64,000 nucleotides of DNA, from positions 1 through 64,000 of the forward strand of contig CAMXQE010000005.1 of the NCBI GenBank assembly GCA_947246015.1. Direction: 5' to 3'. Under the pieces are notes generated by a model. That model was not told the DNA's origin. It saw only the letters and a program-made list of their open reading frames with translations, and ran no database searches. Below, one piece after another: positions 13,731 through 23,895 of this stretch. Position numbers and translations under genes: made by a program. This DNA comes from an uncultured Lachnospiraceae bacterium. Its GTDB lineage: Bacteria > Bacillota > Clostridia > Lachnospirales > Lachnospiraceae. How positions within the stretch are numbered: position 1 is the stretch's first letter; each line of letters begins with the position of its first letter.

Positions 13731-14276
13731 TTAGCGGTTATTGGTCGTATTGGCGCCGTCACCGATTATGTCATCCGTGATATCGGATACACCGTTGGTA
13801 ATGTCATCCACTACGTCGCTTGCTGCATCACCGGCATTGTCAAGAAGGGAGCTGTCGCTGCCGTTTCCGTTTGTGCCGTTCCCTACCGTACCGTCCGTAG
13901 CGTCATTTACATTGCTGTCGGAAGTATTGCCGCCCATGCCGTCTGTACCGGTACCGGCTGCATCGCCGGCCGTGGAGCCTGCGCCTGTGCCGTTGTTACC
14001 AGCACCTGTGCCTGTGCCGTTATCGCCGCCGGTTCCTGCTCCGCTGCCTGCCGCATCGCTGGTATTGCCATTGGTGGAATTACTATTTGTGGTATTGCTA
14101 TTGGTGGAATTGCCGTTTGCAGCATTTCCGTTTGTGGTGTTTCCGTTTGTGCCGGTGTCATTGGCGGTATTTCCGCCGTTTGTATTATCTGCGGCATTCC
14201 TGTTACCGCAGGCAGCAACGAGACCCAGCATGAGGACCATCAGAGAAACTGATATCAGTTTTTTGCTGTTTTTCAT
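13731..14276 (-). CDS. Asn/Thr/Gly-rich low-complexity lipoprotein
   Basis: 181 residues. MKNSKKLISVSLMVLMLGLV leads to a lipobox (VAAC) with Cys at about residue 22, so it is a lipid-anchored surface protein. The mature part is almost entirely low complexity: repeats of NGN/TNG/NST for about 50 residues, a Gly/Thr-rich stretch, then an Asp-rich end with two related pieces (DVVDDITNG, DITDDIIGD). No enzyme motif is visible. The start at 14276 is set by GGAGGG eight bases upstream and by the signal sequence; the frame stays open well upstream but encodes only Phe/Tyr-rich translated A/T sequence. It may be a spacer or surface coat protein, but the function is unknown. Confidence 0.8.
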   Translation of the reverse strand: MKNSKKLISVSLMVLMLGLVAACGNRNAADNTNGGNTANDTGTNGNTTNGNAANGNSTNSNTTNSNSTNGNTSDAAGSGAGTGGDNGTGTGAGNNGTGAGSTAGDAAGTGTDGMGGNTSDSNVNDATDGTVGNGTNGNGSDSSLLDNAGDAASDVVDDITNGVSDITDDIIGDGANTTNNR

Positions 14277-14343
14277 AATATTCCCTCCATTTTTCATAAA
14301 ATTACATTTTAAGTGCAACATTTTGAAATGTTGTATTAGTAGT

Positions 14344-14470
14344 ATGTTCATGAAAGAAAAAAATATACGAAGGAAAATATAAGAAGGAAAAATATAAAAA
14401 ACAGAAAAAATAAAACAGAAAATATAAAACCATAAAATATAAAAACAGAAAAATAGAAAACGAAAAGAAG
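14344..14470 (+). repeat. A-rich tract upstream of hisA
   Basis: About 125 bases that are almost all A with scattered short words such as ATAAAAACAGAAAA repeated imperfectly. It forms the leader of hisA and the region upstream of the divergent lipoprotein gene. Confidence 0.6.
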
Positions 14471-14485
14471 GAGCGTACCCCAAAG

Positions 14486-18826: not shown

Positions 18827-19249
18827 ATGTTGGGAAGAAAGACGACCGAACAGGTAAATGCGAAGATAGGAAGTATCATAGGTGCGGATATGGTAGTGGA
18901 AGGTAATATCAAAGCAACCGAAGCTATCCGCGTGGAAGGAAACGTAAAGGGTGATGTGAGTTCAGAGGGAACGCTGGTAATCAGTTCCACGGGCAAAGTG
19001 ATAGGGAATATCAAAGGAAATAATATCATGATAGCCGGAACCATCGAGGGAGACCTGTTCTCCGGCGGAAGGACTGAGGTGGCTTCCACGGGCAGGATTA
19101 TCGGCAATATCCGCACGAAGAGCCTGATTGTAGATGAAAATGCAGTATTCCAGGGTCAGTGTACCATGAATCCGGACGGAAGTGCATCGGCGCCGCGGGC
19201 GATACCGATGGCATCGAAGCAGACGGATGATGACGGGGACGAAGAGTAA
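18827..19249 (+). CDS. Bactofilin (polymer-forming cytoskeletal protein)
   Basis: 140 residues with the right-handed beta-helix repeat pattern of bactofilins: alternating short strands from about residue 12 to 115 (GADMVVEGNIKATEAIRVEGNVKGDV, then STGKVIGNIKG and STGRIIGNI). An acidic tail (DDDGDEE) ends it. It forms filaments without nucleotide and localises cell-wall enzymes. AAGGAGGAG precedes the ATG. The tight pairing with an M23-family gene is a known arrangement; here the partner is catalytically inactive. Confidence 0.95.
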   Translation: MLGRKTTEQVNAKIGSIIGADMVVEGNIKATEAIRVEGNVKGDVSSEGTLVISSTGKVIGNIKGNNIMIAGTIEGDLFSGGRTEVASTGRIIGNIRTKSLIVDENAVFQGQCTMNPDGSASAPRAIPMASKQTDDDGDEE

Positions 19250-19304
19250 GGCAGGAATTTTTGGGAAAAGAATATGGGAAGGGCCGGAAACAGAAAGGCC
19301 CGGC

Positions 19305-19345
19305 GGCACCGGCAGGGGAGGAAAAGCCTGACGGCGCCGTTTTTT
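19305..19345 (+). terminator. Terminator after the bactofilin operon
   Basis: Arms 19305-19316 and 19327-19338 pair in 10 of 12 positions and are followed by GTTTTTTC. Confidence 0.8.
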
Positions 19346-19354
19346 CTTGAAAAG

Positions 19355-19396
19355 AACAGGTTTCAAAAAGAGGAAGAAGAACCGGGAAACCTGTTT
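19355..19396 (+). repeat. 10-bp inverted repeat before the sortase-like lipoprotein
   Basis: AACAGGTTTC (19355-19364) pairs perfectly with GAAACCTGTT (19386-19395). A short T stretch follows; it may be a back-up terminator or part of the next gene's leader. Confidence 0.5.
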
Positions 19397-19428
19397 AATT
19401 ACGAAAAGGTGGAAAAGGGAAGCGGAGC

Positions 19429-20232
19429 ATGAATAGAATGGAACGAAAAACAACTTTGGTATTAATAGCCATGGCATGGTTGTCCGTGGTATTTACCGGA
19501 TGCGGAAATCAGGAAACGGAAAACGGCGCATCGGAGACGGAAAGCATTGGAAATGCATCGGAAGAGAGCGGGGAAGTACCGCTGCCACAGACGGGGCTTT
19601 TATATGAAACGGCGGAGGATGGACATATTGATTTTGAGGCGCTGAAAGCAGAGAATCCTGATATTTTTGCCTGGCTGTATGTGCCCGGTACGGATATAGA
19701 CTATCCGGTGCTGCAAAGCCCGGTGTCGGATGACTTTTATAAAACCCATACGGCTGACGGGAAGGAGGGCGCGGACGGAGCGCTTTATACCGAAATGCCG
19801 AATATGATGAATATGTGCGATTTCAATACAGTCATTCATGGCAGGGATGACGAAGAAGGCAGCTTGTTCGGAGACCTGCATTTGTTTGAGAATCCTGATT
19901 TTTTTACGGAGCATGAGAAGTTTTATCTGTATCTGCCTGATAATGTGCTGACATATGAAATATTTGCGGCATATTATGACGAGGGAAGCGATATTCTGCG
20001 CAGGTTCGATTATACGACTTATGAGGGCTGCGACAGTTATTTAAAACAGTTGTATGGATTGCGGGAGATGGGGAAGAACCAGAGAGAGGGATGGGATGAC
20101 CTGACGCCATATCATTTTCTGGTGACGTTGGATGGAAGTACCGCAGAGGATAAGCAATATGTCGTGTGCGGTGCCCTGATAGGGGATGCGGCGGGTAATA
20201 TCAACAGAGTTATTCTTGAATGGGATGAGTAA
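19429..20232 (+). CDS. Sortase B-fold lipoprotein without catalytic residues (pseudo-sortase)
   Basis: 267 residues. A signal peptide ends in a lipobox (FTGC, Cys at about 25), so the protein is lipid-anchored outside the cell. From about residue 65 it follows the class B sortase pattern: AWLYVPGTDIDYPVLQ, THTADG, NTVIHGRDDEEGSLFGDL and a final beta strand. Aligned to the active sortase at 22678, the catalytic His (YGHHM) is R139 in HGRDD, the catalytic Cys (LTLSTC) is S237 in VTLDGS, and the Arg (DGRFVV) is Q243 in DKQYVV. It should therefore not transpeptidate. Possible roles are substrate binding or sortase regulation. It has no adjoining partner gene; the active sortase lies 2.4 kb downstream beyond the Rpn elements. 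Confidence 0.82.
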   Translation: MNRMERKTTLVLIAMAWLSVVFTGCGNQETENGASETESIGNASEESGEVPLPQTGLLYETAEDGHIDFEALKAENPDIFAWLYVPGTDIDYPVLQSPVSDDFYKTHTADGKEGADGALYTEMPNMMNMCDFNTVIHGRDDEEGSLFGDLHLFENPDFFTEHEKFYLYLPDNVLTYEIFAAYYDEGSDILRRFDYTTYEGCDSYLKQLYGLREMGKNQREGWDDLTPYHFLVTLDGSTAEDKQYVVCGALIGDAAGNINRVILEWDE

Positions 20233-20553
20233 ATGTCGTGTGTTTCTGTAATATGTTTGTTGTAGCAGTTCGGCTTCCGGTCGGACTGTTTTTGCTCTTG
20301 CGTATTTAAGTGTAATTATTAGGAATAGTCTTGAGTATATGCATAAAATATGATAATATATTATCGATATTACATCTGCACATTATGAAACCCGACAATT
20401 TTGCAATACGTTCGGTATTCTTTTATTCCCGCGAGCAACGAGGAAAGTGTCTGCTTAAGAGATGCAGAGCATCTCCAGGCATTTGGCGACTGCTGCGAGG
20501 GTCAAGTGTCTGCTTAAGGCGGGATTGCAGCTTAAGAGAGAATATCAGGATTA
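20233..20553. other. 321-base gap with terminator, promoter and short direct repeats
   Basis: It holds a terminator (20266-20293), a promoter-like pair TTGAGT (20331-20336) and TAATAT (20354-20359) with 17-base spacing, and the 15-base word AAGTGTCTGCTTAAG twice (20445-20459 and 20504-20518). Its A+T-rich part resembles the region upstream of the intact Rpn gene. Confidence 0.55.
20266..20293 (+). terminator. Terminator after the pseudo-sortase gene
   Basis: CAGTTCGGC pairs with GTCGGACTG, with two G-U pairs in RNA, followed by TTTTT. Confidence 0.7.
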
Positions 20554-20868
20554 ATGCGCGTGAAAATGAATGTGCTGCAGGAAAAGGCGGAGCAGTGTAC
20601 AGGGAAGGTGAGGGAAAGAAAGATGGGATACCGGAATGAGACGATGAGGGTGCAGGCAGAGTACAGGAATACGGAGGAGATAAGAAGAGAGGCGGAAGCG
20701 GCAAGGGCGAGGGGAATGCGGAATGCAATAAGGGATTTCGTTATTATGTGCCAGTTTATAGGCTTCAATAAAGAGTCGATTATAAAGTTTTTGGTGGAAA
20801 AAGTTGGATTGGTAAGAGAAGATGCAGAAGCGGAGACTGAAAAACACTGGAAACAACAGGATGGTTAA
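20554..20868 (+). pseudogene. C-terminal remnant of an Rpn-type nuclease gene
   Basis: The 104-residue frame aligns with the C-terminal third of the intact gene at 21207-22298: QCTGKVRERKMGY against QCVEKVRKREMGY, YRNTEEIRREAEA against RRNTAEAKREAEE, and the final helix KESIIKFLVEKVGL against KETAINQLMEKAGL. The N-terminal PD-(D/E)XK domain and the Gln/Glu repeat are gone. The ORF has an ATG but only a poor ribosome binding site. It is most simply a decayed duplicate. Confidence 0.75.
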
Positions 20869-22677: not shown

Positions 22678-23895
22678 ATGGCGGAAGGTCATACGGTCGA
22701 AGGACGGCAGTTCCGTACGAAGGCAGATTATGAGGCCGCATTGCGTGATAAGAAAAAGATAGACGCAATCAGGGCAAAAGTGGACCTCAATAATCCGCAG
22801 GATGTATTGGCGTTGTATGAGCAGATGCAGGGGGGAACTTACCGGTTTGAATCCATGGTTGGCAATGATTTTGACGATCGGATATACGAACTGGCGGAAA
22901 AGTATAAGAAAAGCGGAGCGAATCCGCCTGGAAAACAGGCAAAAGCCAAGGGAAAAGCGCTAAAGAGCAAGAAGAACCGTGCGGACGGCGGAAGGATTCC
23001 TGAAAAGAAATCATCGGGGAAAAATTCAGGGAGAATTTCATTAGAAGATTTTGACAAAGATATGCAGAAGGAAATCGCCGCCCAGCTGAAAGCCAGGGAC
23101 AGGCGCAGAAAATGGCTGGTGGCCCTGTGCAGTATCGGCGCGGTACTCGGTTTCGGGTATTTTATTACATATTATTATGTGGCGGAGCGTACGGAGGCAA
23201 GCTATGAGGAGCTGGCAAGCTTAAAGAACAGCGAGATTCTGGCGGAGCCGGTGAATAACAGTGAGGAGAAAAAAGTCATCGTGGTACGGGGGCAGGAAGA
23301 GGAAATCGTACTTCCCGATATACTGGATGAATATAAAACTTTATATAATAAGAATAAAAAGCTAATCGGATGGCTGAAAATTGACGATACAATAATAGAT
23401 TACCCTGTCATGCAGACTTCGAACAACGAGTATTATCTGACCCATAATTTTAATCAGGAGAAGGATAATAACGGAAGTATTTTTATGGATAAGGACTGTG
23501 TGGCATATCCGAGAAGCCAGAACCTGATTCTGTATGGACATCACATGAAATCGGGAAAGATGTTCGGGGATTTGGAAAAATATGCAAAAGAATCCTATTA
23601 TCAGAAGCACAGTATCATCCGGTTTGATACGATATATGAGAAAGGTGTTTACCAGGTCATGTATGTATTCCGGGCGAGGGTACTTAAGGAAAATGAAATC
23701 GCTTTTAAATATTATCAGTTTATAGAGGCCAATTCGGGAGAGGAATTCAATTCCTACATGAACGAAATGGCGGAAATGTCCCTGTACGATACGGGAGTGA
23801 CAGCCGAGTATGGGGATGAGCTTTTGACATTATCCACCTGCGACCATTCGCAGACCGATGGAAGGTTTGTCGTAGTGGCCAAAAGGATTCAGTAA
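22678..23895 (+). CDS. srtB: Class B sortase with long cytoplasmic N-terminal extension
   Basis: 405 residues. The C-terminal sortase domain (about 225-405) carries the full triad: H288 in LYGHHMKSG, C388 in LTLSTCDH and R396 in TDGRFVV. One membrane segment (about 143-167) places the domain outside. Before it lies an unusual cytoplasmic region of about 140 residues, basic and helical, with KGKALKSKKN-type Lys-rich patches. The gene directly downstream encodes a surface protein ending in PKTGD, a membrane segment and positive charges, so it is the likely substrate. Class B enzymes of Clostridia are known to accept PxTG-type motifs. AAGGAG precedes the ATG. Confidence 0.93.
   Translation: MAEGHTVEGRQFRTKADYEAALRDKKKIDAIRAKVDLNNPQDVLALYEQMQGGTYRFESMVGNDFDDRIYELAEKYKKSGANPPGKQAKAKGKALKSKKNRADGGRIPEKKSSGKNSGRISLEDFDKDMQKEIAAQLKARDRRRKWLVALCSIGAVLGFGYFITYYYVAERTEASYEELASLKNSEILAEPVNNSEEKKVIVVRGQEEEIVLPDILDEYKTLYNKNKKLIGWLKIDDTIIDYPVMQTSNNEYYLTHNFNQEKDNNGSIFMDKDCVAYPRSQNLILYGHHMKSGKMFGDLEKYAKESYYQKHSIIRFDTIYEKGVYQVMYVFRARVLKENEIAFKYYQFIEANSGEEFNSYMNEMAEMSLYDTGVTAEYGDELLTLSTCDHSQTDGRFVVVAKRIQ

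Follow-up and report, generated by a model that had tools for sequence, protein, structure and literature searches.

Introduction

In one gut member of the Lachnospiraceae, a sortase was reported in 2026 to be needed for surface capsule, direct capsule production by the sortase being considered unlikely by the authors; srtB4 mutants of M. gnavus lose the surface capsule, a plasmid copy restores it, and srtB4 sits in a capsule cluster with a tyrosine phosphatase and a gene for a LytR-CpsA-Psr glycopolymer ligase/transferase (LCP; PMC13121745). Judged from the range of this cluster, srtB4 should correspond to RGna_12035. In the LcpA-GspA-SrtA pathway of A. oris, the LCP glycosylates a protein that is anchored by the sortase (PMC7831098). 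These two cases, together with the loci described here, suggest a module for retaining the capsule, where a sortase beside an LCP anchors a secreted carrier. On a 64,000-nucleotide stretch (the window; contig CAMXQE010000005.1, positions 1 to 64,000) of an uncultured Lachnospiraceae bacterium, the gene at 19429..20232 encodes a protein with a predicted class B sortase fold and without catalytic His, Cys and Arg, called the pseudosortase in the following.

We regard it as rather probable that this protein is a lipid-anchored, non-catalytic partner in capsule retention, which would hold a small secreted protein (SSP) and possibly the LCP.

Results

The pseudosortase gene and its product have the following features:

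19429..20232, + strand: pseudosortase gene (ATG at 19429, stop at 20232, 267 aa); class B sortase fold without His, Cys and Arg
19429..19506, + strand: signal peptide and lipobox VVFTGCG, its Cys being residue 25 (19501-19503); putative lipidation, judged from the sequence
19837..19845, + strand: H137-G138-R139; R139 stands in the catalytic His column, and H137, two residues before it, is conserved in 50/52 homologues
20137..20139, + strand: S237, in the catalytic Cys column, unconstrained across the family
20155..20157, + strand: Q243, in the catalytic Arg column, Gln in 51/51 readable homologues
20185..20211, + strand: C-terminal tail, residues 253-261 (DAAGNINRV in the window protein); D253, A255, G256, I258 and R260 are each conserved in 46-50 of 52

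Fold and residues of the window protein were as a sequence-only reading of the window had supposed, namely a sortase B fold in which all catalytic residues are replaced. Structure prediction, proposed there as a check, gave a class B sortase fold; R139, S237 and Q243 occupy the alignment columns in which intact class B sortases have His, Cys and Arg, and the motifs DIDYPVLQ and SLFGDL are both present. TIGR03064 (class B sortase) was matched with E 7.2e-28 and 97.5 bits, below the curated cut-off of 153.75, and PF04203 with E 4e-5 and 23.8 bits, below the curated cut-off of 26.6. As a sortase enzyme the protein fails on five tested features (three residues, the anchor and a neighbouring substrate), in addition to its scores.

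In place of the uncleaved N-terminal membrane anchor of class B sortases, the family appears to carry a lipobox, the Cys column of which is invariant (52/52). A strict lipobox pattern was passed by 43/52 homologues and misses the window protein, in which the -3 residue is an unusual Phe. The proposal that the protein is a lipoprotein can be kept in the form of a probable lipid anchor; the contrast drawn with true sortases was too broad, since three class B sortases of the window's genus with an intact triad and a linked LCP gene (L040 5050-6126, L042 1874-2764 and L044 4285-5289) also have a lipobox-like N-terminus and are possibly lipoprotein-anchored catalytic sortases. As part of the joint explanation given above, and held with the same reserve, the window protein would be a pseudoenzyme, with a class B sortase fold on a putative lipoprotein anchor at the outer membrane face.

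Close homologues (53-75% identity) were found in the window genome and nine others, that is, in 10/98 related genomes among the matches listed; all ten fall among the 16 genomes of the window's genus. A scan of named genome contigs gave 71 loci, including 55 pseudosortases (L104-L157 and L167); these come from 49 assemblies, as counted by accession prefix, with record titles naming Lachnospiraceae, Butyrivibrio, Parablautia muri, Clostridium, Ruminococcus and unplaced bacteria. Together with L219 these make up the 56 loci outside the window genome to which pseudosortase locus counts refer. Conservation was read from an alignment of 52 sequences; L133 and L141 (coordinates and scores shared with L132 and L139), L075/L219, and L116 and L134, which were read directly, were left out of it.

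Catalytic His, Cys and Arg are each kept in 0/52 aligned members. The His position is occupied by K (31), S (6), D (4), R, N and A (3 each), E and P (1 each), the Cys position by 12 residue types, and the Arg position by Gln in all 51 readable sequences, the remaining one ending at a contig edge; of the R/S/Q triad, the conservation of which had been put forward for checking, only Q is a family feature. Also conserved, besides the C-terminal tail, are H137 (50/52), C201 (49/52), R219 and W222 (47/52 each). C130 and C201 are near-invariant and both Cys in 44/52, a possible disulfide in a secreted protein. The ratio of non-synonymous to synonymous substitution rates (dN/dS) was 0.08-0.20 in 11/11 pairs, which indicates purifying selection, with dS near saturation in several; between the window gene and its nearest relative it was 0.08 at a saturated dS of 1.9. 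The pseudosortases form one clade in a FastTree phylogeny (support 0.964; 54 tips for 53 sequences, L167 occurring twice) and in a second, thinned tree, from which the duplicate was dropped and in which every third pseudosortase was kept (SH-aLRT 80.7). By sequence, this is a conserved family, and a recent loss, with close relatives retaining Cys and His, is contradicted by the 0/52 homologues that keep either. The open-access literature searched, partly by title and start of abstract, yielded no account of a dead sortase family in nature, and no paper on the class B sortases of Lachnospiraceae was found in the open-access literature searched.

An LCP gene lies within 300 nt of the pseudosortase gene in 56/56 loci, and at least one of CpsB, Wzz, CpsD and a sugar transferase is encoded in 49/56; Pfam searches of representative loci confirmed LCP, CpsB_CapC, Wzz and Bac_transf. 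An SSP is present in 53/56 loci, within 300 nt in 48/56, and the three loci without it (L114, L152 and L154) have a contig edge just after the pseudosortase gene. The SSP profile finds the same 10/98 related genomes as the close pseudosortase homologues (at least 53% identity, from the matches listed). No SPKTG-type signal was found in any of the 56 loci among 668 open reading frames (ORFs), on the same strand within 4.5 kb. The predicted model of one SSP (L130, 8956-9573) is confident and beta-rich, with no clear match in the PDB and a noise-level resemblance to dextranase and to FIIND/ZU5/GAIN-type domains.

Among sequences with an intact triad, those closest to the family are class B sortases, most of which adjoin an LCP gene. 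In the thinned tree the pseudosortases lie inside a 79-tip clade (SH-aLRT 82.7), in which an LCP link is present for 41 of the other 60 tips, as against 0/18 outside. Of 53 loci examined, 40 of which were picked from high-ranking matches and represent no random sample, 42 are LCP-linked with His and Cys present by motif (intact loci below); the loci are not independent, L159/L160, L164/L173, L208/L214, L220/L221 and L040/L044 being close pairs. A secreted SPKTG-type neighbour was found in 35/42 intact loci, 25 with a full signal, including L224, flagged on a probably spurious 616-aa ORF and also encoding a 234-aa APSTG protein, and 10 with a bare motif. Twelve secreted proteins next to intact LCP-linked sortases end in bare SPKTG or APKTG (e.g. 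SPKTGE, APKTGQF, SPKTGN), without a membrane segment and charged tail, and by eye no such tail was seen in the three frames just downstream; they are encoded in L040, L044, L208 (two), L209, L214, L215, L218, L220, L221 and L231 (two).

A profile of the SSP C-domain matched 15/1617 ORFs of the intact-locus set. One match is the SSP of pseudosortase locus L219; the other 14 all have sorting-type tails (full, bare or variant), the two weakest being matched at E 0.03 and 0.05. A neighbour was flagged in 11/35 SPKTG-type intact loci. In the opposite direction, a profile of 12 sorted proteins matched 43/50 SSPs among 45 matches in 1051 ORFs at E 1e-3 (45/50 SSPs at E 0.05), and one of the two non-SSP matches, L173, is a training sequence; the same profile matched 32/39 sorting-type neighbours among 36 matches in 1617 ORFs, its 12 training sequences included. 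Profile matches in both directions therefore place the SSP among the relatives of probable sortase substrates, minus the sorting signal. An N-terminus A..SP[STND] right after the signal peptide, a motif picked after inspecting the sequences, occurs in 35/50 SSPs, 17/39 sorted proteins and 6/1001 other ORFs.

A second dead class B sortase linked to an LCP was found in one locus of one draft genome (L094 1417-2298 and L210 5610-6491, the same gene). It is membrane-anchored, with His replaced by Gln, Cys by His, and Arg kept; the neighbouring protein (L210 7663-8469) has the shared SSP domain (E 1e-12) and ends without a sorting motif. This apparently independent case of the same paired loss points the same way.

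The surroundings of the pseudosortase gene in the window include two further genes:

18827..19249, + strand: bactofilin gene, just upstream of the pseudosortase gene and outside the system
22678..23895, + strand: SrtB, catalytically intact; apart from it and the pseudosortase, the search of the window genome gave no sortase; a neighbour rather than a demonstrated part of the system

LCP adjacency does not extend to the window genome itself, where the pseudosortase gene follows the bactofilin gene on contig C5 and the LCP and SSP genes are neighbours on contig C37, separated by 135 bp without a sortase gene. In the nearest relative the pseudosortase homologue sits in the capsule operon, and the window gene has 79% DNA identity to that capsule locus over 655 bases. 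Homology of the bactofilin block to the nearest relative ends at ~19233, within the end of the bactofilin gene, and the pseudosortase gene therefore seems to have been inserted after it. The window pseudosortase appears to have relocated from between LCP and SSP, leaving the trio intact in trans, a reading that rests on draft assemblies, the window genome being 84% complete. Repeats around 19200-20600 of the window and L071 13402-13560 were only short (18 and 15 nt), and none flanks the pseudosortase gene. Next to SrtB, starting 3.7 kb downstream of the pseudosortase gene, lies the gene of a leucine-rich repeat (LRR) protein; close to the C-terminus of this protein, PKTGD and a run of hydrophobic residues were seen by eye and were not flagged by the sorting-signal pattern search. 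An ORF on the - strand at 13731-14483 begins with a lipobox-like sequence (LGLVAACG), after which comes a long stretch of low complexity that is rich in Asn, Gly and Thr.

Discussion

The observations would fit a three-part module of capsule or exopolysaccharide (EPS) loci in Lachnospiraceae, made up of an LCP glycopolymer transferase, a sortase-fold protein and an SSP with a conserved beta domain. In the probably ancestral form, still seen in relatives, catalytic residues are present and the small protein has an SPKTG-type signal at its end; the LCP would link polysaccharide either to the wall or to this protein, the sortase would anchor the protein, and the capsule would stay on the cell. 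In the lineage of the window the sortase has lost its catalytic residues and is probably a lipoprotein, and the small protein is without a sorting signal, with all three genes kept. As the trio persists without chemistry in enzyme and carrier and the fold is under selection, we therefore infer a lipid-anchored holder of the SSP. Its present role would most likely be non-catalytic: while capsule is being attached, the pseudosortase would keep the SSP, and possibly the LCP, at the surface of the membrane.

A more specific form of this explanation is offered only tentatively: sortase and substrate might have given up covalent chemistry jointly while still recognising each other, and the inactive sortase would have become a lipid-anchored receptor that holds its former substrate beside the LCP, with the capsule kept without wall sorting. 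The full SPKTG signal, the bare C-terminal SPKTG and the absence of a signal in neighbouring loci are possible intermediate stages of such a loss.

Several points weigh against the module as proposed. Descent of the pseudosortases from an LCP-linked sortase is likely and not proven, because FastTree gives the joint clade a weak support of 0.413 and the two tips nearest to the pseudosortases, L165 and L166, lack a link to an LCP. No SPKTG-type neighbour was detected in 7/42 intact loci, among them L222, the SAKTG tail of which was missed by the pattern, and L164 and L042, which are short, and 7/39 sorting-type neighbours miss the shared-domain profile. A broader sorting-signal pattern, applied to whole loci, flagged 1/55 pseudosortase loci (L123, LPLAA in a 469-aa ORF ~6 kb upstream). 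As one of the two peptide patterns of the scan favours the pseudosortase motif, its counts say nothing on frequency; in 397 family genomes, 73 matches were obtained at E 1e-35, and of 30 loci taken from these, three are without His and Cys (window, L075 and L094). Tight co-expression with LCP and SSP cannot be essential in the window genome, because the pseudosortase gene has left the operon there. Finally, srtB4 of M. gnavus is the one case in which a requirement for surface capsule is shown; SrtB4 may itself be catalytic, and its phenotype is therefore no proof of a non-catalytic role.

Among other explanations, a pseudosortase that mainly serves the LCP as scaffold or specificity factor, for instance by presenting peptidoglycan as acceptor, with the SSP as a separate capsule protein and operon-mate only, is unlikely, though the most probable of these. 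Peptidoglycan precursors are acceptors used by sortases, LCP adjacency is the most constant feature of the loci (56/56 within 300 nt, against 48/56 for the SSP), and the seven intact loci without a detected SPKTG-type neighbour fit as well. This explanation has to contend with the occurrence of SSP and pseudosortase in the same ten genomes among the matches listed, with an SSP domain common to sorted proteins beside intact sortases, and with the absence of the sorting signal just where the enzyme is inactive. Chemistry of its own, by way of the non-triad residues H137, Q243 or the near-invariant C201, is quite improbable: these residues are conserved, as are R219 and W222, but neither Cys nor Ser is conserved at the catalytic position, where S237 is one of 12 residue types, C201 paired with C130 would also suit a disulfide, and the expected peptide substrate motif is gone from the neighbourhood.

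The sequence-only reading had considered that the protein holds sorting signals or regulates SrtB, the gene of which lies 2.4 kb downstream. In favour of this are the presence of both genes in the window and the PKTGD and hydrophobic stretch of the LRR protein beside SrtB; against this, the homologue of the nearest relative is found in a capsule operon, and 0/56 other loci have an SPKTG-type signal within 4.5 kb. Capture of PKTGD signals or control of SrtB is accordingly very improbable. Regulation of SrtB was not borne out, the constant neighbour in 56/56 other loci being the LCP gene, and the holding of sorting signals survives in changed form only, as a former sortase substrate that may be held, without capture of the LRR protein. 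A recent loss or a decaying gene without function is hardly credible; the departure of the window copy from its operon would suit it, but the dN/dS values, including 0.08 for the window gene at saturated dS, and the same residue losses in distant members including Butyrivibrio speak against it.

If the pseudosortase is a non-catalytic partner in capsule retention, a trio of LCP, sortase-fold protein and secreted protein kept without catalysis and sorting signal would represent a natural experiment on the need for a sortase in surface capsule. Retention of the trio points to a binding role, with the SSP as likely capsule partner. The pseudosortases would form a conserved natural family of dead sortases, and counts of sortase genes by fold can overstate the anchoring capacity of these bacteria.

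Comparison with known systems

From class B sortases (SrtB; TIGR03064, PF04203; e.g. C. perfringens SrtB, 5yfk/5b23) the pseudosortase differs in the absence of His, Cys and Arg, with Arg replaced by Gln throughout, and in its probable lipoprotein anchor, its conserved C-terminal tail and the absence of an SPKTG-type signal nearby in 56 loci. With the class B sortases that are linked to an LCP in capsule loci of Lachnospiraceae, M. gnavus SrtB4 probably among them, it shares the LCP neighbour, in many cases the capsule or EPS setting, and the small secreted neighbour, usually with the SSP domain; unlike it, those read have His and Cys by motif (except L094), and their partner usually has an SPKTG-type end. 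The likeness to LcpA-GspA-SrtA of A. oris lies in an LCP that is genetically linked to the secreted partner of a sortase-fold protein; there, SrtA is a catalytic housekeeping sortase and GspA has a sorting signal, both of which features are missing in pseudosortase loci. Dead mutants of solved sortases (e.g. C232S in 5yfk) likewise combine the fold with a lack of working catalysis, but are laboratory mutants and no natural conserved family.
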